Below, piece by piece: positions 2,628 through 29,200 of a stretch of 33,727 nucleotides of DNA. A model generated the notes under the pieces. It did not search any database. It saw nothing but the letters and a program-made list of their open reading frames with translations, and was not told the DNA's origin. The position numbers and the translations under genes were made by a program. Origin of the DNA: Cyanobacteria bacterium RM1_2_2 (GTDB lineage Bacteria > Cyanobacteriota > Cyanobacteriia > Elainellales > Elainellaceae); assembly GCA_012033495.1 (NCBI GenBank), contig JAAUQT010000038.1, positions 1 to 33,727 on the forward strand, read 5' to 3'. Positions within the stretch are counted from its first letter, which is position 1. Each line of letters starts with the position of its first letter.

Positions 2628-3824
2628 ATGATTAAGGACTATCTTTTCTTCACTCGCAGTACACTTCCTCAGCCCGGAGCCGACTTTATTCAGATTGTCA
2701 ATTGTGCTAATGGAGCCGCCAACCTGGGCTATTCTGCGGTTTTGACTTATCTCGATCAAGGCTTCAACGCACTGAATCCAAATCAATGGCTGCACCCATT
2801 CCAGCCTAAATCTCCTGATGGTGATCTTGCTCACTACTACACATTCCAAGATCGGCTTAAAGTAGCTGCTTTGCCCATGCCGTGGCTATTACATCGTTAT
2901 TTTCCAAATAAGTGGACAAATCCTAGCACACTAACTTGTAAATATTATTTACCCTTGCATTTACGTCCTACTACTCAGATTGTTCATACCCGTGATTGGA
3001 ATTTCATCAAGGCAGCAATTCGTTGTGGTATTCCGGCTATCTATGAACATGATCACTACGCAGAAAAGCCTTTTGAGCCAGAAATTGTTCATCACCCGCT
3101 GTTTCAGGTTGCCGTAACCGTTGCCGATCCAATTCAGCGAGACATGATTGAGCACGGAATGCCACCCGAAAAGATTGTTAAATTGCACAATGGCTTTAAC
3201 CAACTGTTCTTAACGAAGCATCCTCATCAAGCCGAGGCTTGGCGGCAGCGCTTGCTGGGTCAGCATCAGCACTTAGCGGTTTATTCGGGAGCATTATTTC
3301 CCTTCAAAGGGGTGGATTTGCTGATAGAGATTGCCAAAGATTTGCCTGACGTGCAGTTTGTCTTTGCTGGAGGTGACGAGACGCAGGTTGCCGCCTATCG
3401 AAAACTTGCGAGAGAAAAACAGACTGGGAATACTCAATTTCTAGGGCACCTGCCTCATGAAAAGTTGGCAAGTTTGCTGCAAGCGGCAGATGTTTTGCTG
3501 CATCCCCACTGTTCGGGTGAAGCGGCAACATTTACTTCCCCAATGAAATTTTTTGATTACATGGCTTCAGGAACGCCGATTGTTGCCACAGAAATTCCGC
3601 CATTGATGGAATTCAAGCCTTCTGGTGTAGTTGCCGGATGGTGCGAACCGGATCAGCCGATTCAGCTACGGGAGTGTCTGCGCCACGTTTTGCAGACCCA
3701 TCCACGGCGGGCAGAAGGTTATGCCAACAGCATGGAATTTGTGCAGCAGTTCTCTTGGGAAAATCGCATCGCCACGGTGTTGAAGTATGTAGAGGACTCC
3801 TTCAAGCCTGCCGTAGCTCAGTAA
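2628..3824 (+). CDS. glycosyltransferase family 4-like (group 1) protein
   Basis: A GT-B fold glycosyltransferase of about 398 residues. The C-terminal half carries the family-typical sugar-nucleotide binding region: YSGALFPFKGVDLLIE, then VFAGGDE, FLGHLPHEKLASLL, ADVLLHP and the retaining-GT4 Glu-X7-Glu-like area around SPMKFFDYMASGTPIVAT. The N-terminal half should bind the acceptor. The ATG at 2628 is preferred; an in-frame TTG at 2607 lies only 6 bases after the stop of the ABC exporter gene. The close spacing suggests both genes work in the same surface polysaccharide or glycolipid route. Donor and acceptor sugars cannot be told from sequence alone. Confidence 0.88.
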   Translation: MIKDYLFFTRSTLPQPGADFIQIVNCANGAANLGYSAVLTYLDQGFNALNPNQWLHPFQPKSPDGDLAHYYTFQDRLKVAALPMPWLLHRYFPNKWTNPSTLTCKYYLPLHLRPTTQIVHTRDWNFIKAAIRCGIPAIYEHDHYAEKPFEPEIVHHPLFQVAVTVADPIQRDMIEHGMPPEKIVKLHNGFNQLFLTKHPHQAEAWRQRLLGQHQHLAVYSGALFPFKGVDLLIEIAKDLPDVQFVFAGGDETQVAAYRKLAREKQTGNTQFLGHLPHEKLASLLQAADVLLHPHCSGEAATFTSPMKFFDYMASGTPIVATEIPPLMEFKPSGVVAGWCEPDQPIQLRECLRHVLQTHPRRAEGYANSMEFVQQFSWENRIATVLKYVEDSFKPAVAQ

Positions 3825-3999
3825 ATTTGTTGGGTTCAATGAATCGAAAGGGTGGGATTGAAGGGCCGCCGTCCCTACAGATTCATCCCGAAAAGTTATT
3901 TTTCGCTGATCTTATCTGGATGCCGATTACCTGAGAGCAAGTGCATAACTTGTACAAGCTCAATCCTACATGAAGGTATATCTCCTCACACACACTGCT

Positions 4000-4302
4000 A
4001 TGAACGTTAAACTCCCTGTTTTAACTGGTTTTAGTTTGGGTCTGGCTGCTTTTATGTCCGCTGCCCAACCCGCGTTGGCTGATGTATCAATCGAAATTAT
4101 TTCCCGCTCTGGTTCCGTTAGAGGCGCAAATCCTGGAAGCGGAGTTGAAACCAACGCTCCATCTTTTCAGCCCACTGCTTCTGAAAATGAGCCAGATCGC
4201 CAGGATCGGGTGCAGCCGCGCTCGCGGATTTCTGTGGACGCTGAACAAGACACTGCTGAGCCTACCGACGATGAGTTTGAAGGAATTCTCATTCGGATCT
4301 AG
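4000..4302 (+). CDS. small secreted protein of unknown function
   Basis: A protein of about 100 residues that I do not recognise. From the ATG at 4000 it begins with a classic signal peptide: a Lys near the start, a hydrophobic stretch (LPVLTGFSLGLAAFMSAAQ) and a likely cleavage after ALA before Asp. The mature part is short, polar and acidic toward the end (DAEQDTAEPTDDEFEG), lacks Cys and looks disordered. An in-frame ATG at 3970 would add ten residues and blur the signal peptide. No strong ribosome binding site precedes either start. It is probably exported to the periplasm. It stands alone between the glycosyltransferase and the convergent methyltransferase gene. Confidence 0.55.
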   Translation: MNVKLPVLTGFSLGLAAFMSAAQPALADVSIEIISRSGSVRGANPGSGVETNAPSFQPTASENEPDRQDRVQPRSRISVDAEQDTAEPTDDEFEGILIRI

Positions 4303-4385
4303 TTGCCTTTGTTTACACTGATCCCATTTCAACGATGAAGCCGGAGCCATTGTCAGACTCATTCTGCCGAATTACGAGCTACCCA

Positions 4386-4411
4386 TGGATCTAACTTTTG
4401 GATCTAACTTT
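4386..4411. repeat. 13-bp perfect tandem duplication at the 3' end of the methyltransferase gene
   Basis: TGGATCTAACTTT occurs at 4386-4398 and again at 4399-4411. Because 13 is not a multiple of three, the second copy is read in a shifted frame on the minus strand and supplies the stop codon at 4391-4393 after the residues KVRSKS. Confidence 0.85.
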
Positions 4412-5401
4412 CGGGTGTTCCAGTAAGTTCGCCAGCTTTTGCTGAGCAGCAGTTGTCCGATTCGTTTGATGTGCTCTAAGCTCCTCTGGATCGAGCGGCG
4501 CAGTATTTTGTAACAATACCGTGAATGCTCCGGCTCCTAAACTCGTTTGCGGAAACATCCGGTAACAGGGCAACGCCGTGAGGTGCGATTGGTAGGCTGC
4601 TAAATGGGGCACTTCGACAGGCTGAAACTGAGGGAACTTTTGCAACAGCCATTCTGTGACTTGCTCATTTTCTTCGAGCGAGTAGGCGCAGGTCATGTAT
4701 GCCAAAAAACCTTGTGGCGCGACGATTTGAGCCGAATTTGCCAAAATCCGCTTCTGCCGATTGGCATTCTTGTTGATGTTCACCGGATGGAAGCAACCGG
4801 GATTTTTTTCGCCTTTTGCCAGCAAAGATTGCCCGGTGCAAGGCGCATCTACGATTACGAGATCGGACGTTTCAGGAATGTCGGCAGCTAGCAGACTCGA
4901 ATCGAACATGACGGCAACGCAAGGTTGCACCTGACAGCGTTTGAGATTTGAGGTGAGTGCTCCCAGTCGTTTGCCGATTACCTCATTACTGATCAGCAAC
5001 TTCGGCTGTAGGGCTTTCCAGGCAAAAATACTCTTGCCGCCCGGCGCAGCGCACATATCCAATACGGTTTCAATGGGATGCTGCATCTGCAACAGCAAAA
5101 TCTGCAACAGCACCGATGCCGCAAATACTGAAGAAAAATCGAGACAGTAAAATGCGCCTTGATTGTGCAGCGGATGCCGTCCGGGTTTGGCATCGAAGGC
5201 TAATCGATCCACAAAAGGCGGCTGCCAGTCTAGAGGAGGTTCCACTACAAACGGGAACGGGTCGGGTCGTTGTCCTAGCCAGAGAATGCAGGGGTGAAAG
5301 GCTTGTGGCTGCATCAACGCTTCGATAAACTGCGCCTGCTCGCTCGGCTCAGGAAACAGCTTTTGGCTAAATTTTTGTAGCAATCGGGGCGCTTGTTCCA
5401 T
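4391..5401 (-). CDS. RNA (cytosine-5-)-methyltransferase, RsmB/NOL1/NOP2/Sun family
   Basis: An S-adenosylmethionine-dependent m5C methyltransferase of about 336 residues acting on rRNA or tRNA. The SAM-binding motif DMCAAPGGKS is clear. It is followed by the two catalytic-cysteine motifs of the family: DAPCTGQSLL (motif IV, Pro-Cys) and YMTCAYSLEENE (motif VI, Thr-Cys). The frame extends back to 5434, but the ATG at 5401 gives a normal N-terminus (MEQAPRLLQKFSQ). The start overlaps the 3' end of mnmH by about 35 bases, implying translational coupling of two RNA-modification genes. It lacks an N-terminal NusB-like domain, so it is closer to the shorter RsmF/YebU or NSUN-like members; the exact target nucleotide is unknown. 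The last residues are shaped by a 13-bp duplication. Confidence 0.88.
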   Translation of the reverse strand: MEQAPRLLQKFSQKLFPEPSEQAQFIEALMQPQAFHPCILWLGQRPDPFPFVVEPPLDWQPPFVDRLAFDAKPGRHPLHNQGAFYCLDFSSVFAASVLLQILLLQMQHPIETVLDMCAAPGGKSIFAWKALQPKLLISNEVIGKRLGALTSNLKRCQVQPCVAVMFDSSLLAADIPETSDLVIVDAPCTGQSLLAKGEKNPGCFHPVNINKNANRQKRILANSAQIVAPQGFLAYMTCAYSLEENEQVTEWLLQKFPQFQPVEVPHLAAYQSHLTALPCYRMFPQTSLGAGAFTVLLQNTAPLDPEELRAHQTNRTTAAQQKLANLLEHPKVRSKS

Positions 5402-6503
5402 GAATTTTGGCTTGCAGCAGGGTGGCAATCTCACCGTCCGATAGGCCTGTCACCTCGACGGTTTCAACTGGGACGTTACGACGCTGGAGATCGTAAGTAT
5501 AGGTGCGATCGTAGTAGTCCAAGATCAAATCGAATGCGGCAGTTAAGTTATTTTGTTGGATCAGTTCAACGGCTTGCTGGGTGCGGAGTCCGCCCAATCG
5601 CTTGCGAATCCGCTCGGTGGCAACCATCAAATCTACACGACTGGCAGCGCCGTAAACCTGCACCAGTAAGGCAAGCCGCTCGGCTCGACTTCGAGCAATT
5701 TCGATGATGTGAGAGCAATTCATCTGGTGAAATACGGCTTCGGGAATGCGGCATTGTCCAATGCCACGGCTTTCGGCTTCTAGCCAAACCGGACGCTGGG
5801 GATCGAGTTTTGCCCACTGAAGCGCAATCTGGTTTTCAAACTGTTCGGTTGTGGGCTGCGGCGGCAACCCCAGGGCGCCAAAACTGCTGCCCCGATGATG
5901 AGCCAACGCTTCTAGGTCAATCACCTGCTCGCCTTGAGCCGCCAGCGCCGCGAGAATATCGGTTTTGCCCGTGCCCGTCATGCCGCCCAAAATCACAATC
6001 GGTTTGGGAGTCTCGAACTGCTGAAACGCCCAGCCACGAAAAGCTTTATAGCCGCCCATCAGCAGAGAGACTTTGAAACCTGCCATTTCCAGCACCCAAG
6101 CAACTGCTTCACTCCGCATTCCACCCCGCCAGCAGTGCAGCCGAACTCGGCGATCGGGGGCGATTTGCTTTGCCTCCGTAATAAAATCTGCGAACTTTGG
6201 GCCAGCCATCGCAAACCCAAGCTCTACGGCGGCATCGCGTCCTTGCTGCTTATAACAAGTGCCCACCTGGGCTCGCTCATCGTCGCTGAACAGCGGAAAG
6301 CTCATTGCGCCAGGAATATGCCCTTGAGCGAACTCAGAGGGGCTGCGAACATCTAGCATCGCACCCGGCATATGGAGAAATTCGGTAAAAGGAAGAGAGT
6401 GAGGCACGTCGGCAACAGCAAGCAATAAAAAGCGATAAAACAGTGAGACAACAGAACCGTAAGACTCGCAATCAGCAATCGGGTATCCAGTTGAAGTCGG
6501 CAC
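5367..6503 (-). CDS. mnmH: tRNA 2-selenouridine synthase (SelU/MnmH)
   Basis: Replaces the sulfur of 2-thiouridine at the wobble position of some tRNAs with selenium, by way of a geranylated intermediate. An N-terminal rhodanese domain (about residues 40-160) carries the active Cys in HCWRGGMRS, Cys124 in this frame, equivalent by alignment of the motif to Cys97 of the E. coli enzyme; GTCYKQQGRDAA is another family block. A P-loop domain follows with GGMTGTGKTD near residue 173 and LEALAHHRGSSFG. Length is normal. The start is uncertain: GTG at 6503 gives an extra 32 residues, while GTG at 6407 (reading MPHSLPFTEF) fits the family better. It is divergent from the CapA-type gene and overlaps the methyltransferase gene downstream. 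No selD is visible here, so selenophosphate supply must be encoded elsewhere if the enzyme is used for selenium. Confidence 0.92.
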   Translation of the reverse strand: MPTSTGYPIADCESYGSVVSLFYRFLLLAVADVPHSLPFTEFLHMPGAMLDVRSPSEFAQGHIPGAMSFPLFSDDERAQVGTCYKQQGRDAAVELGFAMAGPKFADFITEAKQIAPDRRVRLHCWRGGMRSEAVAWVLEMAGFKVSLLMGGYKAFRGWAFQQFETPKPIVILGGMTGTGKTDILAALAAQGEQVIDLEALAHHRGSSFGALGLPPQPTTEQFENQIALQWAKLDPQRPVWLEAESRGIGQCRIPEAVFHQMNCSHIIEIARSRAERLALLVQVYGAASRVDLMVATERIRKRLGGLRTQQAVELIQQNNLTAAFDLILDYYDRTYTYDLQRRNVPVETVEVTGLSDGEIATLLQAKIHGTSAPIATKI

Positions 6504-10197: not shown

Positions 10198-11262
10198 ATG
10201 AGTGCCCATTATTTAGCAGGGAAACCTGTCTTAGTGACTGGTGGAGCGGGATTCATCGGTTCACAGTTAGTGAGTGATTTATTAGCAATTGGCGCAGAAG
10301 TTGTTGTCATTGACAATGAATCTAGAGGATCAAAATCAAATCTAGAAGATGTCAATTTTGGTATCCGAGACAACAAAAACTACTTTAAAGTTGATCTGCG
10401 TGACCCGGATGCACAGAGGTATTTCAAAGACATTCACACGGTCTATCATCTTGCTGCCGATGTGGGCGGTATTGCCTACGCTTTGAGTCAAGGCATCCAG
10501 ATTTGGAAAAACAATACGCTGATCGACGCCAATGTGTTTGAAGCCGTGCTGAAGCATCAAGTGCCAAACTTGGTTTACGCTAGCTCTTCTTGTGTCTATC
10601 CGTTGAATCTGTCTTCTCCCGATCGGGCGCTTCAAGAATCCCATGCTTGGCAGGGCGAAATGCACACCCTCTATGGTGGCGAAAAGTTGCTGGGCGAAAA
10701 GGCAATTAGAATGCATTTACAAGGCTCTCATCCAACAAATACCGCTGTGGTTCGTTTCCATAACGTGTATGGGCCGCGCAGCATCATGAAGGGGAGGAAC
10801 GCGCAGGTGATCCAGGCTTTAATCTCTAGAGCTTTGAATCATCCATCTAAAAACTTGGAGGTTTGGGGCAGCGGACAGCAGGGGCGAGATTTTATTCACG
10901 TCAGCGATATTACCCATTGGTTGGTCAATCTTTGGCTGCCAACGACAAATTCTTTGCCTCAAGACCCGATTCAACGCGGCTCTGGAATCAACACTCAAAT
11001 TCGAGAAATTGCGCAACACATCATCAATATTTTGGAACTCAATATTGAGATTGATTTCCTTCCTGTTCCAGACGAAGGAGAGCGCGGTCGAAAGTCAGAT
11101 AATTCTAAATTTGATGCGCTCTATCCTCACTTACCGCAGCCCTTGCCAATTCAGGAAGGCATCCGTCGGTATATTGATTGGGTACTCGAACATGAAACTT
11201 TTTGGAAGGAAAAGATTAGTGAAGCGAGCAACAGGGCGGCTTTTCCGTGCCTAACGCGGTAG
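10198..11262 (+). CDS. NAD-dependent epimerase/dehydratase (extended SDR, GDP-mannose 3,5-epimerase-like)
   Basis: A sugar-nucleotide epimerase or dehydratase of 354 residues. The Rossmann motif TGGAGFIGS is at residues 14-22, with Asp39 likely to bind the ribose of NAD, DLRD near 66, HLAADVGGIAY at 84-94, the catalytic block SSSCVYP at 129-135 and the Tyr-X3-Lys pair Y159/K163 in YGGEK. The VGGIAY and SSSCVYP blocks resemble GDP-mannose 3,5-epimerases more than GalE, but the substrate is not certain. The ATG at 10198 has a good ribosome binding site. Its last 47 bases overlap the convergent histidine kinase gene tail to tail. It is likely used in cell-surface polysaccharide synthesis. Confidence 0.88.
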   Translation: MSAHYLAGKPVLVTGGAGFIGSQLVSDLLAIGAEVVVIDNESRGSKSNLEDVNFGIRDNKNYFKVDLRDPDAQRYFKDIHTVYHLAADVGGIAYALSQGIQIWKNNTLIDANVFEAVLKHQVPNLVYASSSCVYPLNLSSPDRALQESHAWQGEMHTLYGGEKLLGEKAIRMHLQGSHPTNTAVVRFHNVYGPRSIMKGRNAQVIQALISRALNHPSKNLEVWGSGQQGRDFIHVSDITHWLVNLWLPTTNSLPQDPIQRGSGINTQIREIAQHIINILELNIEIDFLPVPDEGERGRKSDNSKFDALYPHLPQPLPIQEGIRRYIDWVLEHETFWKEKISEASNRAAFPCLTR

Positions 11263-12439
11263 GCAACTGAATAAGGAATTCTGTTCCTTTTCCAAGGGAA
11301 GACTCAAATGACAAAAGCCCTTTGTGCTTCTCTGTAATAATTTGATGGCTAATTGCTAACCCCAAACCTGTTCCTTTACCAACGCCTTTCGTTGTAAAAA
11401 AGGGATTGAAAATTTGGTTTTGGATCTCATTAGGAATTCCTTTGCCATTGTCAGAAATGCGGATAGCGACATGCTTTCCATAGCACTCGGTTTGAAGTTG
11501 AATGCAAGGATTTTTGATCTCTTCTAAGGCATCAATTGCATTAGATAGGAGGTTCAAAAACACTTGATTTAATTCTCCTGAAAAGCATTCTATGGATGGT
11601 AATTCGCCGTAATTTCTGACAATGGCAATTCCTGCTTTTTTGATCCGATACTCCAAAATCAGCAAGCTGTCATCCATGCCTTCATGAATATCCACTGTCT
11701 TAAATTCGGCTTCGTCGAGTCGTGAAAAGCTGCGTAGAGATTTAACAATTTTACGAATGCGTTCACTTCCCAAACGAATCGATTGCAGAACTTTGGGCAA
11801 GTCTTCAACCACAAAATCGATTTCCATTTCGTCCAGAGTAGTTTGTAGCTCTGGTGATATTGAGCAGCTATTTTGATAGAGCTCCAGCGCTTTAACTAAG
11901 TACTGGTTGTATTCCTCTACGTGTACTAAGTTACCGTAGATGAAATTGACCGGATTGTTGATTTCATGGGCAATTCCTGCAACCAGTTGCCCCAAAGCTG
12001 CCATTTTTTCGGTATGGATTGCTTGCGTCTCGCTTTTGCTCCTACTGCCCTGATCATTGATCGCCTGATCAACTTTTGTGATGAATGACCAAATATATTC
12101 CTCGCCCTCTATTTCTAACAGTACCCCAGACAAGCGCACAGGAATTTCTTTTCCGTGCTTGTTGATGTATTCTTTCTCATACGGGCCGTACTGCCCTGTA
12201 TGTTTGAGCTGAGCTAACTGAAACAGTTCTTTTGAGCGATATTTTTCAGGGGTCAATTCCCAATACGATAGCTGCTGTAGCTGATCGATGCTGTAGTCCA
12301 ACATATCTGCCAAGTATTGGTTGGCATAGACAAATTGCCCGTTCATGCGGCATAGAAGTAAGCTGAAGGGTAGCTGTTCAATTAAAGTCAGCAGCGTTTC
12401 TTTTGTGTCGAGGGAAGTCGGTAAGCCAAGAGGGTTCAT
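11216..12439 (-). CDS. PAS-domain sensor histidine kinase
   Basis: A 407-residue, apparently soluble kinase with no membrane segment. A PAS domain spans about residues 15-125 ([19 protein letters not shown]...). The phospho-acceptor is His158 in [15 protein letters not shown]. The HATPase_c domain has the N box [10 protein letters not shown] at about 297, the G1 box DNGKGIP at 330-336, and the G2 region [13 protein letters not shown] at 352-364. It has no receiver domain and no response regulator gene adjoins it, so it is an orphan in this window. The last residues ([13 protein letters not shown]) are encoded inside the overlap with the epimerase gene. The ATG at 12439 is a reasonable start. 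The signal sensed is unknown; nothing in the sequence shows haem or flavin binding. Confidence 0.9.
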
Positions 12440-12776
12440 TCGAGAAACCTATACGAGGGTATTGATCAGCAGAATCAAGAGGTATTTTCTCATTTGAATT
12501 AGGCAGATACTCCAAAATTATCCAACCTCAAAAGGCTTTATGTCTTCTTTTGGAGCAGGCAGATCCAACGGAGGCAATATTGGACAAACAGCCGTATTTC
12601 GTTACATTTGAACATCTTCTCGTAAGATACCCAGAGCGACCTAAAAAGTAACGGCATAGCCAGGGTAGAGGCAAGGATTTCAGGATTTTATCGATTTAGG
12701 TTTATGCTGCATTCAATCCCAAGCAATTCATGATAATTGCCTGTTTTATGATGATGAGAAATTAAGGATCATAATT
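12440..12776. other. intergenic region between divergent kinase and fumC genes
   Basis: About 337 bases with no gene. It should hold both promoters. A small hairpin, GCAATT at 12723-12728 with AATTGC at 12735-12740, lies about 40 bases before the fumC ATG, and AAGGAT about 7 bases before that ATG is a usable ribosome binding site. I see no tRNA or riboswitch. Confidence 0.4.
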
Positions 12777-14182
12777 ATGGCTACTATGCAACCTGAGATG
12801 GCTACCCGAATCGAAACAGACAGCATGGGCCCAATTGAAGTGGCCGCCGATCGCTATTGGGGCGCTCAGACGCAGCGGTCACTCAAATATTTTGCGATTG
12901 GTCATGACGTGATGCCCCGTGAGATGATTCGGGCGTTTGGCATTCTCAAAAGGGCAGCCGCTACAGTCAACCGCGATTTGGGTAAACTACCGGAAGAGAA
13001 GGCAAAGCTGATCGTACAGGCAGCCGATGAAGTCATTGCCGGACAGCTAGACGATCACTTTCCGTTACGAATTTGGCAAACGGGCAGCGGCACTCAAACG
13101 AATATGAACGTGAACGAAGTGATCTCCAATCGGGCGATTGAACTAGCGAATGGAGTATTGGGCAGCAAAGATCCGATTCATCCAAACGATCAGGTCAACC
13201 TGTCTCAGTCCTCAAACGATACATTTCCAACAGCGATGCACATTGCCGCAGTTAAAGAAATTCACGATCGGCTGATTCCTGCGGTGACACGATTGCGAGA
13301 TAGCTTGATTGAAAAATGAATGAGTTCGATAATATTATTAAGATTGGTCGAACCCATCTCATGGATGCTGTGCCGCTTACATTGCAGCAAGAGTTCTCAG
13401 GATATGTATCTCAAATTGAAAAAGATATAATTAGAATTCAAACGACTCTACCAGATTTGTATGAATTAGCGATTGGTGGAACTGCTGTCGGAACAGGACT
13501 GAATACGCATCCAGAATTCGCCGATCGTGTTGCAGCCGAGATTGCCCAACTCACCGAACTGCCGTTTGTTTCTGCTCCCAATAAGTTTGCGGCTCTTGCT
13601 GCCCATGACGCAGTTTGCATGACGAGTGGTGCGCTGAAAACGCTGGCGGCCTCGCTGATGAAACTTGCAAACGACATTCGCTGGATGGGTTCAGGGCCGC
13701 GCTGCGGATTAGGAGAATTAATGCTGCCGGAAAATGAACCGGGATCTTCAATCATGCCGGGAAAAGTTAACCCAACTCAGTGTGAAGCAATGACGATGGT
13801 GTGTGTGCAGGTGATGGGCAACGACGCAGCCATCGGCATCGCCGCCAGTCAGGGCAACTTTGAGCTAAATGTGTTCAAACCTGTGATGATTTTCAATCTC
13901 CTCAATTCGATTCGGTTACTGTCTGATGCTTGCGTGTCCTTTACCAATTATCTAGTCGTTGGCATTCAGCCGAACCGTCCGCAAATTCAGCATTTCCTCC
14001 AAAATTCGCTGATGCTGGTGACGGCTCTCAATCCTCACATCGGCTACGATCGGGCGGCAAAAGTTGCCAAAAAAGCGCATACCGAAGGCAAAACCCTGCG
14101 CGAAGCCTGCATTGAGTTAGGCTTCTTGACTCCAGAAGCATTCGATCAATTGGTTCGCCCTGAGCAGATGCTTAGCTCCTAA
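12777..14182 (+). CDS. fumC: fumarate hydratase class II, broken by a 1-base frameshift at 13312-13316
   Basis: Interconverts fumarate and malate in the TCA cycle. The first frame (12777-13319) gives 180 residues with [16 protein letters not shown] and [15 protein letters not shown]. The second (13316-14182) gives 288 residues starting [20 protein letters not shown] and including the lyase signature [13 protein letters not shown], whose Ser is catalytic. Adding one A to the A5 run at 13312-13316 joins them as ...[17 protein letters not shown] and gives 468 residues, the usual FumC length. All active-site blocks are intact. Either a base was lost in sequencing or the gene is newly inactivated; I favour sequencing. 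The ATG-TGA overlap could mislead annotators into two genes. It converges on bioB, 46 bases away. Confidence 0.9.
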
Positions 14183-18038: not shown

Positions 18039-21000
18039 ATGTTCGTTAATTACTTCATTAAACGCCCGGTTTTCACTGCGGTTTGCTCAATTATTACTGT
18101 GTTTCTGGGCGTGATTGCGGGGCTGACCCTGCCCATCGCTCAATTTCCTGAAATTTCCCCTGTGCAAGTTGTGGTGACATCAAACTACACTGGCGCAGAC
18201 GCAGAAACCGTGGAAAATGCCGTTACTAATATCCTGGAGCGGGAGATTAACGGCGTCAAAGGCATGAGATACATTAGCTCCAACAGCACCAGCGATGGAA
18301 CCAGCCAGGTGACTGTCACATTTGATGCGGCTCAAGATCCAGACATTGCAACGGTCAACGTCCAAAACCGAGTGTCGCGGGTGCAGCCGCTGTTGCCCGA
18401 AAGCGTGACCCAAACTGGAGTTGTGGTCAACCAGCAGTCGAGTAACTTCTTGATGGCAATGGCAATCTATGCCGACGAGGAGCAATACGACAGTCTGTTT
18501 TTGAGTAACTATGCTGATGTTTATCTGCTGGAAGGGCTAAAGCGCATTCCAGGGGTGGGATCGAATCGAAATCTTTGGGGAACGCAAATTGCGATGCGGC
18601 TCTGGCTTGATCCCTCTCGATTGGCTGGCCGCCAACTCACTTCCCAAGACGTAGTAGACGCGATCCAGGAGCAAAATATTCAAGTTGGGGCCGGGCAAAT
18701 CGGACAGCAGCCTGCTCCAGAAGATCTAGAGTATCAGTTCAATTTGCGAGCCGTTAGCCGCTTAACCGATGTTTCCGAGTTTGAAAACCTAGTACTCAAA
18801 ACCGAACCGGGCGGCAATTTGGTGCGGTTGAAGGATGTGGGACGGGTTGAGCTTGGCGCTGAAAACTACGGTACGTTCCTCGCCTACAACGGTCAGGAAG
18901 CGATTGGCTTAGGGATTAACCAGCGCCCCAACACCAACGCGCTGGAAACCGCCCAAGCGATCCGCGACGAGATGGAACGCCTCAGTCAAGATTTTCCGCC
19001 AGGGTTGCGCTATGCCGTCGCGTTTGATACGACAATGTTTGTGTCGGCATCGTTGAGAGATGTGGTATTCACGCTGCTGGGCGCGGTGGCGCTAGTGGTG
19101 TTGGTGATCTATCTCTTTTTGCAAGATTGGCGCACAACGCTGATTCCTAGTATCACCATTCCGGTGGCGCTGATTGGGACATTCATTTTTACGAAGATTT
19201 TTGGCTTTTCGCTCAACACGCTGACTTTGTTTGGTTTGACGCTGGCAACTGGGGTCGTGGTGGATGACGCGATTGTGGTTGTAGAGGCGATCACCACCAA
19301 AGTTCAAGACCAGGGGATGGATCCCTTCCAAGCTGCGATCGAAGCAATGCGGGAACTCACCGGAGCCGTAATTGCTACCTCACTGGTGCTGATGGCGGTG
19401 TTTGTGCCGGTGGCTTTCTTTCCGGGCACGACAGGGGCCATTTACAAACAGTTCGCCCTCACGATTGCCTTCTCAATCACAGTTTCCACCTTCAACGCGC
19501 TGACTCTCACCCCGATGCTTTCAGCCTTGCTGCTGCGCCGCAAGGAAGGAGACGGCGGCTTTTTGAGTGGCGTCTTTCGCCAGTTCAACCGGTTTCTGGA
19601 TATGTTGCGGCGGCGCTATCGGCGATTCCTGGGTTTTCTGACTCGAATTCGCGGCTTGCTGATCGCCGGGTTCATCGGCTTACTGTTTTTGACAGCGTGG
19701 ATGTATCGCGCTGTGCCGTCCGCGTTTTTGCCAGAGGAAGATCAGGGCTACTTTATTACGCTGGTGCAGGCTCCAGAAGGGGTTTCGCTGAATTACACCA
19801 AAAAGATTCTAGATCAAGCCTCCGAGCAAGTGCGACAAATTCCTGAAGTCGAATCTAATTTTGCGGTGACAGGATTTAGCTTCGCTGGCGTTGCCCCCAA
19901 CCAGGGCATTATGTTTACGCTACTGAAACCCTGGGAAGAGCGAACTAGACCCGAACAACAGGTGCAAGCGCTGATTGGGCAGGCGCAGATGGGATATTTT
20001 GGCATCCCGGAAGCCCAAATCTTCGCGCTTAACCCTCCGGCGATTCAAGGCTTGGGCAATTTTGGCGGCTTTCAGCTAGAGCTACAGGATCGGCGGGGTA
20101 ACTTATCGCTAAACGAATTTGTGGCCAACTTCGGCAATTTCCTAGGAGCCGCGAACCAAAGTCCGACAGTCCAGGGCGTTTTCTCTACCTATGCTGCCAA
20201 CACGCCTCAGCTTGAAATTGAGGTGAATCGAGAGCGCACAAAAGCCTTAGACATTGACATCAGCGATGTGTTTGACACGCTGCAAACTTTTTTAGGCTCG
20301 CAGTATGTCAACGACTTTACGCTCGATCGCCGCAACTATCGGGTATACGTGCAAGCTGACCAACAGTTCCGCTCTAGACCTGAAGACATTAGCCAACTCT
20401 ACGTGCGTTCTGGCGATGGGCAATGGTGCAATTGAGCAACTTGGTGACAGTGACACCCACCACCAGCGCCCAAACGATTACCCACTACAACCTGTTTCGT
20501 TCGATCTCGGTGCAGGGGGCGGCGGCTCCGGGCGTCAGTTCTGGGCAAGCGTTGGCGGCGATGGAAGAAACGGCAGCAGAAGTGTTGCCGCCAGGGATGG
20601 GCTATGAGTGGACAGGCACCGCGTTAGAAGAAATCGAGTCGGGTGGGCAAGCGCCGCTGATTTTTGGGCTGGGCTTGGTGCTGGTGTTTTTGGCTTTGGC
20701 TGCGCAGTATGAAAGCTTCATTGACCCAACCATCATCATGCTGACGGTTCCTCTGGCAATTTTGGGGGCGCTGTCTGGGGTGTTTGTGCGAGGCATCCCC
20801 AATGATGTTTACTGTCAAATCGCCCTGGTGATGCTGATCGGCTTGGCGAGTAAAAACGCCATTCTGATCGTGGAATATGCCAACCAACTGCGCGAGCAGG
20901 GCTTAACGATTACCCAAGCAGCGATTGAAGCAGCCCAAGAACGGCTCCGCCCCATTCTAATGACAGCAATTTCAAGTTTGGTAGGCTTCTTTCCGCTAGC

Positions 21001-21205
21001 CATTGCCAGTGGCGCCGGTGCTTCTAGCCGTCAGTCTTTGGGAACGGCACTGGTGGGCGGCTTCTTGATCGCGACGTTTTTGAGTTTGTTTATTGTGCCA
21101 ATTCTCTATATTGTGATCAAGCAATTGGCTGATCGCTTGTCGCCGCCTAAGAAAAAGAGAATGATGAAAACCCCCTTGCCTCAAACGGAAGTCGGCTCTC
21201 GCTAA
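18039..21205 (+). CDS. RND multidrug efflux pump (AcrB/HAE1 type), broken by a 1-base frameshift near 20422
   Basis: A proton-driven inner-membrane exporter. Frame one (18039-20435, 798 residues) starts MFVNYFIKRPVFTAV, the HAE1 signature, and includes VVDDAIVVVEA with the paired aspartates of the proton relay in TM4, and LPEEDQGYF at the start of the second periplasmic half. Frame two (20423-21205, 260 residues) continues with MVQLSNLVTVTPTTSAQTI and the last TM helices (MLIGLASKNAILIVEYA). Restoring one A at 20422-20423 (CAATGG to CAAATGG) joins SGDGQ to MVQLSNLV and gives 1055 residues, the usual size. The break lies in a periplasmic loop, so two separate proteins make little sense. No adaptor or TolC-like gene is adjacent. 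Substrates are unknown. Confidence 0.9.
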
Positions 21206-24252: not shown

Positions 24253-25766
24253 CTATTTTTCTGGCTCGGTTTCTTGGGTGAGCGGGCTGACAATCCGATC
24301 GATGGCTTCTTGTAGAAACCGTTTGACAAATTCATCCCGACGGTTGAGGCGAAATTGCTCTTGCACCACTTCCGTCATGCCACCATCGCCCCAGTCTTGA
24401 TTGCGACGGAAATATTCGATAAAGCTTCTGCCCGCAATGCGAGTCAGGTAGGCAGCCGTTACGCCCTGAATTGCTCGCCCGATCAGAAATGTGCCGACAT
24501 TGGTTTGCAGTGCGACAGAAAAAATTTCAATGGCTCCGCGCACCACACCCACTCCAATCAGCGTTTTGGCTAGAGAAGCCGCCAACTCTTTGCCGCGTTC
24601 CAAATTCATCTCGCAGCCGTAGATCCGCCCCAGTTCCACCACCATTTGGGCATTAATCGCCGCAGTGGCCAGCAAATCAACGACAGGTAGAGGCGTAGCA
24701 GCCACAACTCCAGCCCCAATCCACTGGAACCGATCAACGACTTTTTCGGCTTGCTGCTGCCGCTGAGCATCGATCAAACGGCGGGTTTCTGCCCCTAACC
24801 GCTGGGATTGCAGCAAAATATTATCGGCGATTAAATCTTCACCTTCGGCTCGCAGCACTGCTGCCATACGCTGAAGCAGGGGCAAAATGTTTGGCTCCGG
24901 CTGTACGATAGTTCCATCGGTCAGAGCCAACGCTTGAGGGTGGGCGGACACCGCAACCAGATCATCTGACAGCACCGCAGCTTGCAGCCGTTGAGAGAGC
25001 CGAGCCAGGATTTGCTGTCGGTCAGCATCGGGATACAAATCGGTTTTATTGAACACAACGATGAGCCGTTTGCCAATTTCGATCAGCCGTTGCAGCAGTT
25101 GATATTCCGACTGGCGCAGGTCATTGTCGATCACAAACAGCAGCAGATCCGCATCGGTGGCCAACTGCCGTGCAAGCTGGTCGCGTTCGGTTCCCATCAC
25201 GCCTGATTCAAACACGCCCGGCGTATCAACAACCGCAATGTCTCGATCGAGTCCTTGCAGCGCCAGCCGATAGGTTTCGCCCAGTGTGGTTGTTCCCATC
25301 GGCGCGCCACCTCCCCAACAATTTCGCCCAGAATCGCATTTACCAGAGACGTTTTACCCGCTGAGCCTGTGCCAAACACCACCACTTTTAGCTCTCGCTG
25401 AGTCAAATCTTGCGTAATAGCTTGGGATCGCTGCAACAACGCTTGGCGAGCCACCTCATCTTGAATCTGCGCCACCTGCTGCTCAACTGCTCTTAGCGTC
25501 TCTTGGGCGACGGTTGTTTTCTCTTGCGGCAGTGTTGGGCGACGAGGGCGAGGTTTGGGGCGCGTGAATAAAAACAGGTAATAGAGCAGCGCTGCAATGG
25601 CTGCAATTAAGCCGATCACTAGCAGCGTCAGCAAAAGGCTGGCTAGCATCGGCGAAATCGTTGCCAACGCCCAGTAGAGTCGCTGCAACGAGTCGAATAG
25701 CCACGCCACCATGCCTAGCGTCAGGAGCACACTAGCGACAATGGTAATCAGGCGGATTCGAGACAT
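24253..25766 (-). CDS. membrane-anchored GTPase with DUF697-like C-terminus, broken by a 1-base frameshift near 25307
   Basis: A GTP-binding protein (TrmE/Era-like fold) with two N-terminal membrane segments (about residues 8-23 and 43-67), a coiled region, then the G domain: G1 GTGSAGKTS at 132-140, G3 DTPGVFE and G4 NKTD. The C-terminal part has small hydrophobic helices of DUF697 type (GVVAATPLPVVDLLATAAINAQMV). The upstream piece (25197-25766) ends in a nonsense tail after GEIVGEV, and the downstream piece (24253-25299) starts at MGTTTLGETYRL. Adding one C on the plus strand at 25307-25308 (one G in the coding strand) restores GEV-GAP-MGTTTLGETY and 504 residues, joining G1 to the switch I threonines. 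Its role is unknown; relatives are common in cyanobacteria. The ATG at 25766 starts the gene. Confidence 0.87.
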
Positions 25767-26899: not shown

Positions 26900-29200
26900 T
26901 CAGCGCACCACCCGCCGCATATAGTCTCCCCATAGCTGAGCCGCATCTGCACTCGCGCCGCTTGTCGGAAGATTGTCATCATTTCCGTACCAAATTCCGG
27001 TCACTAGCGCTTGACTTGGCACATATCCCACAAACCAAAGATCCACATAGTCGTTCGTGGTACCCGTTTTGCCTGCCTCGCCGTAGCCTAGGTAGCCATT
27101 GCGTCCGGTTCCGGCTTGCACAACGCCTTGCAGCAGGGCTGTCATGGTGTCGGCAACTTGCGGCTCTAAGACAGGAACATTCACCTCGGCGTTTTGGGTG
27201 GCATCATAAATGACTCGACAAGTGCGGGGATCATCAAAATCCTGGCAATCGCTGCTGTCTAAAATGCGGTTAATCGTATGCGGGCGGTTGCGGACGCCTT
27301 GATTTGCCAACACTCCGTAAGCGCCAGTCAGTTCGAGCAACGTGACTTCGTTTTGCCCTAGCACCATCCCCGGTACGGGATCAAGATTTGCCGTGATCCC
27401 CATCCGCCGTGCCGTTTGAACCACATAATTTAAGCCAACAGCTTCCGCGATCCGCAGGGCTACCACGTTTTCCGAGCGAGCCATGCCGCTGTACATATCC
27501 AAACCGCCATCTCCAGAGCGACAGCCTTCAAACGATTGCCCTTCCCAGTTCAGCGGCGCACAGGAGTAAGTTGAGCCGGGAGCAATGCCTTGCTCGATAG
27601 CTGCCGTGTAAGCAAAGGTTTTGAAGGTGGAACCGGGCTGCCGATAGGCTTGGGTGGCGCGGTTGAATTGGCTTTCACTAAAATCTACGCCACCGACCAT
27701 TGCCAGCACTTCGCCCGTGCCAGAGTCTAAAGTGACCAACGCCCCTTGCGAAAAGCCTTTCACTGCACCTGTGGTAGCGACGGCATCTTGAAGGGCGGCT
27801 TCTGCTGCCTCCTGAATTTCTAGATCGAGGCTGCTTTCAACGATAAAATTCCCCTCCTGGGCCAACTGCTCGCCCAGCAAAGATTCGATTTCGGCAAATA
27901 CTTCGGAGTAGAAATAAGGCGCAATCGTGCTTTCTAGCTCTTTGATCGCTTTAGGGTTGATTTCAATCCGCGAACGGCGGGCCCGCTGCGCTTCTTCCTG
28001 CCTCACCATGCCCAGCACCACCATGCGGTTTAGCACCCGATCGCGCAGTTCAACGGCGGTTTCGTAGTCTTGAACGGGGTTAAAGGCATTCGGAGCAGGG
28101 AGAATACCCACCAGGGTGGCAGATTCGGAGAGCGAAAGATCTTTGGCAGATTTGCCGAAATAAAACTGAGCGGCGTCTTCAAACCCATAGTTGCCGCTGC
28201 CCAAATAGACGCGGTTTAGATAAGTCAGCATCAGGGCATCTTTGCTATAGAAGGTTTCCAGCTTCAGCGCCACCACTGCTTCGCGGAGTTTGCGTCCGGC
28301 AGAGTCTTCGGTTCCCACATAGTCGCGGAAAATGCTGCGAGCCAACTGTTGCGTCACCGTGCTGCCTCCCTCGCGGATTTCGCCCCCTCGCACGTTTGTC
28401 ACCAAGGCGCGAAAAATCCCAATCGGATCGACGCCCAAATGCCAGTTATAGCGAGAATCTTCAGAAGCCATCACCGCTTTCGGCAGATAGCTGGAAAAAT
28501 CGGAAAGCTGCTTGAGTTCAATATGGGCGCGGGTTTCGATGGCTCGCAGCGGCGTTTCTTCATCGCGGGCATAGACGACGACCGGACCTTGCACCGAAGC
28601 AGGCAACGGCCGCACCGCAAACCGCTGCCATTCCATGCCGATCCAGAGGGCAACGAGGGCAGTTAAACCTGTGAAGCCATACAGCCCATATCGCGCAGTT
28701 TTGACATACCACGGGGGCGGATTGTGATACTGAATGCGGACGGCGGCGGCGAGTTCGGGCGGGCCGAGGGTCAATACATCGCCATGCTGGAGGTTCAGTT
28801 TCGTGAGGCGTCGTTTGCCGCGATAGATGCCGTTGGTGGAGTTTTCGTCGCGGATCACAAAAGGGGCGTTGCGCTGCCGCTGGTCGCGGGTGAGGGAAAG
28901 GTGGACTTGGCTCACCACCGGATTGCGAATCACAATATCGCAAGATTTGGAACTGCGTCCGAGCAGGTAGCGCTCGCCAAGCAGAGGATAAATTTCGGCT
29001 TTAGGCGCATCGGCATCTTGTACCCACAGTTCCGGCACTTTGGCGTCGGGCTTAAGCTGAAGTTTAGAAAAATCGACTCTAGCTTGAACCGTGCGGACTG
29101 CCTGAGTGATAGCTCCTAACAGCGTCTTGGGCGGCTGAGTGGGAGAAGGCGGCCGTTTGCCAGGTTCAGGGGATTGGTTAGGCGGTGGAGATGATGTCAT
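26900..29200 (-). CDS. class A penicillin-binding protein (PBP1A type) with N-terminal FHA domain
   Basis: A bifunctional peptidoglycan synthase of about 766 residues. A Pro-rich cytoplasmic start is followed by an FHA domain at about 75-150 (YLLGRSSKSCDIVI, SQVHLS, NSTNGIY), which binds phosphothreonine peptides. One membrane helix follows at about 171-190. The GT51 glycosyltransferase has its catalytic Glu in MASEDSRYNWH (about 247) and EGGSTVTQQLARSIF. The transpeptidase has STFK (Ser about 524), SEN (about 576) and KTGTT (about 711). It builds cell-wall glycan and crosslinks it in the periplasm. The ATG at 29200 is preferred; a GTG at 29239 would add 13 residues. The FHA domain suggests control by Ser/Thr kinases, as inferred for other cyanobacterial PBPs of this layout. 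Confidence 0.94.
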   Translation of the reverse strand: MTSSPPPNQSPEPGKRPPSPTQPPKTLLGAITQAVRTVQARVDFSKLQLKPDAKVPELWVQDADAPKAEIYPLLGERYLLGRSSKSCDIVIRNPVVSQVHLSLTRDQRQRNAPFVIRDENSTNGIYRGKRRLTKLNLQHGDVLTLGPPELAAAVRIQYHNPPPWYVKTARYGLYGFTGLTALVALWIGMEWQRFAVRPLPASVQGPVVVYARDEETPLRAIETRAHIELKQLSDFSSYLPKAVMASEDSRYNWHLGVDPIGIFRALVTNVRGGEIREGGSTVTQQLARSIFRDYVGTEDSAGRKLREAVVALKLETFYSKDALMLTYLNRVYLGSGNYGFEDAAQFYFGKSAKDLSLSESATLVGILPAPNAFNPVQDYETAVELRDRVLNRMVVLGMVRQEEAQRARRSRIEINPKAIKELESTIAPYFYSEVFAEIESLLGEQLAQEGNFIVESSLDLEIQEAAEAALQDAVATTGAVKGFSQGALVTLDSGTGEVLAMVGGVDFSESQFNRATQAYRQPGSTFKTFAYTAAIEQGIAPGSTYSCAPLNWEGQSFEGCRSGDGGLDMYSGMARSENVVALRIAEAVGLNYVVQTARRMGITANLDPVPGMVLGQNEVTLLELTGAYGVLANQGVRNRPHTINRILDSSDCQDFDDPRTCRVIYDATQNAEVNVPVLEPQVADTMTALLQGVVQAGTGRNGYLGYGEAGKTGTTNDYVDLWFVGYVPSQALVTGIWYGNDDNLPTSGASADAAQLWGDYMRRVVR

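Follow-up and report, generated by a model that had tools for sequence, protein, structure and literature searches.

The window, i.e. the whole 33,727-nt stretch of cyanobacterial DNA analyzed here, encodes a protein in which an FHA domain is fused to a bifunctional PBP (FHA-PBP), an arrangement that is the rule in its class outside one family, f19. We think it probable that the cytoplasmic FHA domain binds phosphothreonine (pThr) carried by a membrane protein that belongs to the Ser/Thr kinase network, bringing the synthase to such sites or holding it there. Behind this reading stand the architecture itself, a conserved pocket and the FHA fold of a structural model; several relatives also have kinase genes next to them, and a membrane protein of kinase fold has decayed in most lineages losing FHA-PBP; pThr binding and the identity of the pThr bearer we infer.

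The known routes from Ser/Thr kinases to peptidoglycan synthesis are mostly those of Actinobacteria and Firmicutes, where the reader or adaptor is a protein of its own. FHA-PBP would unite reader and synthase in a single chain throughout most of a photosynthetic class. Since its pocket residues are identified and a docking site can be nominated, kinase control of cyanobacterial wall growth is now directly testable. Family f19, which named contigs together with genome sizes suggest to be the Synechococcus/Cyanobium/Prochlorococcus family, should pose few confounders for such tests, since FHA-PBP provides the sole FHA domain found in 61 of its 222 genomes.

Architecture and FHA pocket

The open frame on the minus strand (29239–26900) begins at a GTG; the ATG at 29200 is the likely start, and residue numbers count from it. 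The gene comprises the following features:

26903..29200, minus strand: FHA-PBP gene, 766 aa from the ATG at 29200
29069..29149, minus strand: N-terminal tail, residues 18–44, mostly predicted disordered (alignment and AlphaFold model)
28763..28969, minus strand: FHA domain, residues 78–146 (Pfam, alignment, AlphaFold and structure matches)
28634..28690, minus strand: single membrane helix, approximately residues 171–189 (sequence)
28022..28552, minus strand: GT51 transglycosylase, residues 217–393, with Glu247 and Glu307 (Pfam and motif)
27008..27745, minus strand: transpeptidase, residues 486–731, with STFK, SEN and KTG (Pfam and motifs)

A preliminary description of this DNA had proposed an FHA domain fused to a bifunctional PBP with intact catalytic motifs. 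Indeed, Pfam recovered FHA (PF00498, 53.9 bits against a gathering cut-off of 20.7), Transgly (PF00912, 182.4 bits) and Transpeptidase (PF00905, 121.1 bits) with E-values of 2.5e-14 to 6.9e-54, which, together with the recurrence of the same layout across the class, excludes a chance match of the domains. Against NCBIfam PBP_1a_fam the protein scored 502.0 bits, 6.75 bits short of the cut-off (508.75). GT51 possesses both catalytic glutamates, Glu247 and Glu307 (the latter via the motif KLRE), and the transpeptidase motifs STFK (524–527), SEN (576–578) and KTG (711–713) are intact. The FHA signature consists of Gly81-Arg82, Ser97, His100, Asp118, Ser121 and Asn123, so that the Gly-Arg, Ser, His and Asn named beforehand, like the coordinates of the gene, were right; the FHA, GT51 and transpeptidase motifs alike are taken to have their usual functional roles. 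The one hydrophobic stretch of the protein (171–189) separates FHA from GT51. In class A PBPs, a domain N-terminal of the membrane helix is cytoplasmic, and the FHA domain is placed in the cytoplasm because of this topology.

In an alignment of 84 rows, from which the duplicate locus L103 had been removed beforehand and in which a small number of second copies remain (L083, L096 and L097 among them), G81, R82, S97, H100, D118 and G124 were invariant, and S121 and N123 were kept in 83 rows. In another set, of 39 FHA segments (the window's and 38 from named contigs), nine columns were invariant: a single Leu plus eight residues of the FHA signature. The Arg, Ser and Asn of the pocket were kept even in rows whose FHA segment shares only 24–30% identity with that of the window. 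The AlphaFold model of the FHA part (94 of 153 residues with pLDDT ≥90) adopts an FHA fold, whose nearest structures are Synechocystis Slr1951 and FHA domains, several of them with phosphopeptides or phosphorylated partners. The best solved matches were FHA domains with Z-scores of 14 to 16.9, topped by 3hx1 (16.9); 3oun (FhaA bound to MviN; Z 14.9) and 6hc1 (DgcB bound to its own phosphorylated N-terminal tail) were also among them. Pocket, modeled fold and class A PBP topology support the earlier claim of a pThr reader on the cytoplasmic side, as a prediction.

FHA-PBP is surrounded by a lipoate-ligase-like gene, a YbjN gene, glyQ and the genes of an RRM protein and of a GTPase with DUF697 (Pfam); no Ser/Thr kinase was found in the window by Pfam scan (28 ORFs out of 45 of ≥100 aa). 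A fumarase-type lyase (12777–14182), an AcrB-type pump (18039–21205) and the DUF697 GTPase (24253–25766), whose upstream half had no Pfam match, each appear to be divided between two overlapping frames, an indication of frameshift errors in the draft assembly.

Spread of the fusion and neighboring kinase genes

The survey across cyanobacteria suggested in the preliminary description covered 291 genomes of the phylum, with the resulting listing counted by hand. The fusion is present in 103 of the 105 class genomes outside f19 (exceptions: G229 and G276) and in 11 of the 36 f19 genomes, and is thus commoner than that description had implied. Identity to the window's FHA-PBP drops from 73% to ~40% across the survey. 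In other classes of the phylum no genome had a best score in the range of the fusion, absence there being read from scores alone. The window's own genome harbors two further class A PBP-like places (C324 and C94), with matches beginning behind the FHA part, as well as 16 FHA places and 32 kinase places above cut-off. One genome, G272, encodes a second, divergent FHA-PBP (L206, 11991–14336, plus strand; 51% identical) with no kinase within the available stretch. Genomes of genus g42 (G131 and G409–G419) gave very weak (E ~1e-6 to 1e-5) or no matches to the class A PBP query; this genus may lack any class A PBP.

Kinase genes adjoin several relatives of the window's gene. In L205 (G171) and L167 (an uncultured cyanobacterium), the stop codon of a canonical kinase (Pkinase, 128.9 and 132.9 bits, respectively) lies three bases before the ATG of FHA-PBP, both genes being on one strand, and upstream there is a PP2C gene (L205 by Pfam, L167 by tblastn); this pairing fits a kinase itself as the partner. 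A second f19 copy, FHA-PBP2, is divergent from genes for an FHA protein, a kinase, a vWA protein and a PP2C (L106–L109 and L171–L174); L106–L109 had been selected for nearby kinase and FHA places, L171–L174 had not, and all four of the latter show the cluster. Of 41 FHA-PBP2 places, at least 25 lie no more than 4 kb from a second FHA protein, and at least 12 no more than 6 kb from a kinase. On the Nostoc plasmid pNsp_h (L124, 8941–15612), typed as mobilizable, FHA-PBP is convergent with kinase and PP2C genes.

Across the flanks of 80 named contig loci, scanned with queries derived from the clusters themselves, kinase/PP2C/vWA matches accompanied five of 49 FHA-PBP loci vs. none of 31 others (L160, which starts inside the protein, being counted without FHA). 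The available flanks of the remaining 44 FHA-PBP loci had no such match, and the primary copy, i.e. the window's kind, usually has no kinase neighbor in the available flank. At L110 of G135 (3347–5704, minus strand; 10496–13530, plus strand), an ABC transporter with two FHA domains is found close to the kinase-vWA-PP2C genes known elsewhere as companions of FHA-PBP2, which looks like an exchange of the effector.

A membrane kinase-fold protein of family f19

Genomes of f19 encode a membrane protein, here labeled MKP, in which a kinase-fold domain is joined through a linker to one membrane helix; the part C-terminal of the helix has no Pfam match and is presumably extracytoplasmic. Its relatives outside f19 are canonical (CVLK, HRDI[SA]P[DE]N and DFG in seven of seven aligned). 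Within f19, the VAIK Lys is replaced by Arg in all 43 genomes read with a primary FHA-PBP, HRD is mostly HGD and the glycine loop is degenerate, leaving an active kinase unsupported; by its sequence, f19 MKP looks like a pseudokinase. Given the Arg in place of the VAIK Lys it may be inactive, in which case another enzyme would have to phosphorylate.

Among 80 chosen f19 genomes, MKP was found in 62, i.e. in all 42 with the primary FHA-PBP and in 20 of the 38 without it; the 18 genomes with no MKP match all lack the primary gene. Among the genomes read, the catalytic-loop Asn of MKP is kept in 43 of 43 with primary FHA-PBP vs. one of 14 without (G221), and an exact DFG in 40 of 43 vs. three of 14 (G221, G135 and G258), its Asp being present in all 43. 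Outside these sets, to which G219 and G444 were added, stand six genomes lacking the primary gene in which the kinase part was not found (G358, G260, G360, G251, G348 and G294) and G298, which has the primary gene but is cut by a contig edge, its motif ADRTVVL being visible. The C-terminal part persists in the 20 genomes with MKP and no primary FHA-PBP, the kinase part being decayed or not found in 19 of them. It speaks against a general link that a search at E 1e-5 missed this C-terminal part in 87 of 156 class genomes, including the window's own (91.65% complete), and that several genomes in which it went undetected do have FHA-PBP.

The juxtamembrane linker of MKP carries an R-T-x-x-L site in 43 of 43 genomes with primary FHA-PBP vs. 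two of 14 without (G135 and G221), counted in the stretch before the membrane helix (three of 14 when this limit is lifted). The pattern T-x-x-[LIV]-x-P, defined in f19, recurs in 11 of 22 linkers of the canonical relatives; shuffled linkers gave a mean of 1.8, and none of 2000 shuffles reached 11, a test of composition and not of independence among relatives that share ancestry.

Mapped onto an atpD tree (72 usable rows), the primary FHA-PBP shows five changes. In independent pairs, the state of the MKP kinase-fold domain was concordant in four, opposed in none and unchanged in one (G221), corresponding to p 0.125 in a test that cannot reach 0.05 with fewer than six pairs; genomes lacking MKP were scored as not intact, and G298, G300, G344, G462, G464 and G465 were omitted as unread or uncertain. 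Mere presence of the MKP gene tracks FHA-PBP less well (1.8 of 5 pairs). This co-decay fits MKP as the membrane partner of FHA-PBP in f19.

A tally at Pfam cut-offs over 222 f19 genomes gave 114 with both FHA and kinase (113 of them with FHA-PBP), two with kinase only, one with FHA only and 105 with neither. The near-perfect co-loss of FHA and kinase that it seemed to reveal is withdrawn, as genus g61 retains MKP with a decayed kinase part below the Pfam cut-off; it is further weakened by only three to four changes on the tree carrying the pattern.

Mechanism, alternatives and known systems

In the mechanism we favor, kinase signaling would put pThr on a membrane partner, the cytoplasmic FHA domain would bind it, and docking would bring or hold the glycosyltransferase/transpeptidase, across the membrane, where the partner is phosphorylated. 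Placement would be the simplest effect of docking, compared with activation or restraint of the enzyme. As first candidate for the pThr bearer we consider the membrane kinase family (MKP), with its R-T-x-x-L / T-x-x-[LIV]-x-P site next to the membrane. Weighing against the mechanism are the lack of kinase neighbors in the window and in the available flanks of 44 of 49 FHA-PBP loci, the Arg in place of the VAIK Lys in f19 MKP and the small number of independent losses. More tentatively, FHA-PBP might be a one-protein signal-to-wall effector recruited by the phosphorylated juxtamembrane T-x-x-[LIV]-x-P of widespread cyanobacterial membrane Ser/Thr kinases, a system reduced in part of f19 to a pseudokinase-like receptor and the PBP's single FHA domain. 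The preliminary description had seen in the fusion a direct route from Ser/Thr kinases to wall growth: the kinase genes beside some relatives and the co-decay with a kinase-fold protein lend such a route contextual support, but it may be less direct than proposed, with FHA only positioning the enzyme.

Phosphorylation might instead act within FHA-PBP itself, with phosphorylated Thr32 of its own N-terminal tail binding FHA in an intramolecular or homotypic switch that shuts out other partners, much as the phosphorylated tails of OdhI and GarA bind their own FHA domains. Outside f19, this mostly disordered (by prediction) tail is conserved around a TQAV motif (of 71 rows, 57 have Thr and 8 have Ser at residue 32, and 48 have Val at the +3 position), and the DgcB complex provides a precedent among the structure matches; yet the 13 f19 rows of the alignment have no such tail and retain the pocket, and we regard the switch as unlikely. 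The FHA fold could also be an ordinary docking surface with phosphorylation uninvolved, as FHA-like folds that do not bind pThr exist and the related Yop-YscD family matches FHA-PBP too (Pfam, 41.2 bits). Against this, R82 and S97, which we take to contact the phosphate, and N123, the presumed pocket Asn, stand in no fewer than 83 of 84 rows, also where identity to the window is only 24–30%, and a phosphate-free scaffold appears quite improbable.

The pattern in f19 might likewise stem from a general reduction of signaling, by which small genomes lose FHA-PBP and kinase domains with no mutual link. The independent events are few (five losses), the f19 genera with the smallest genomes lack both FHA-PBP and kinase, and passages of PMC2176072 report kinases to be absent from four of five Prochlorococcus strains and from Synechococcus WH8102. 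The same survey assigns a single kinase gene each to Synechococcus CC9902, CC9605 and CC9311. However, genome size alone fails as a predictor of loss, because G335 (1.8 Mb) keeps both while G199 and G354 (2.6 Mb) have lost FHA-PBP and show decay. The persistence of the MKP C-terminal part beside a decayed kinase part also argues against shared decay, which furthermore leaves the gene linkage with kinases unexplained; we consider it possible, if somewhat doubtful.

Compared with class A PBPs of the PBP1A family, FHA-PBP has the same GT51 and transpeptidase domains, single membrane helix and full set of motifs, and differs in the FHA domain and tail before the helix. With OdhI/GarA and DgcB it shares an FHA fold and an N-terminal tail that can be phosphorylated (a prediction in the case of FHA-PBP), whereas its output would be an extracytoplasmic enzyme. 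The genes from which FHA-PBP2 is divergent resemble what we take to be the TerY-P triad (vWA-PP2C-kinase), with families assigned by Pfam and NCBIfam scans only; FHA-PBP as the neighbor sets them apart.

A search of the open literature at the depth of titles, abstracts and some passages found no report of the fusion, nor any binding, phosphosite or phenotype for FHA-PBP. That FHA proteins in general go together with kinases and phosphatases is already known, a near-perfect correlation being quoted in a passage of PMC2176072. To our knowledge, neither the co-decay of MKP nor the shared site in the linker has been described before; both come solely from the present analysis.

Closest in concept is FhaA-MviN, where, in passages of PMC12599244 and PMC11898655, the FHA domain of FhaA is bound by the phosphorylated tail of MviN, which PMC11898655 calls the lipid II flippase. 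Peptidoglycan synthesis is controlled there by an FHA domain that recognizes pThr on a membrane protein of kinase fold, as we propose for FHA-PBP, and f19 MKP, which looks like a pseudokinase, is close in concept to MviN; FhaA, however, is a separate protein, whereas in FHA-PBP the putative reader is fused to the synthase itself. Components and principle are thus known, and the fusion is a class-wide variant of them.
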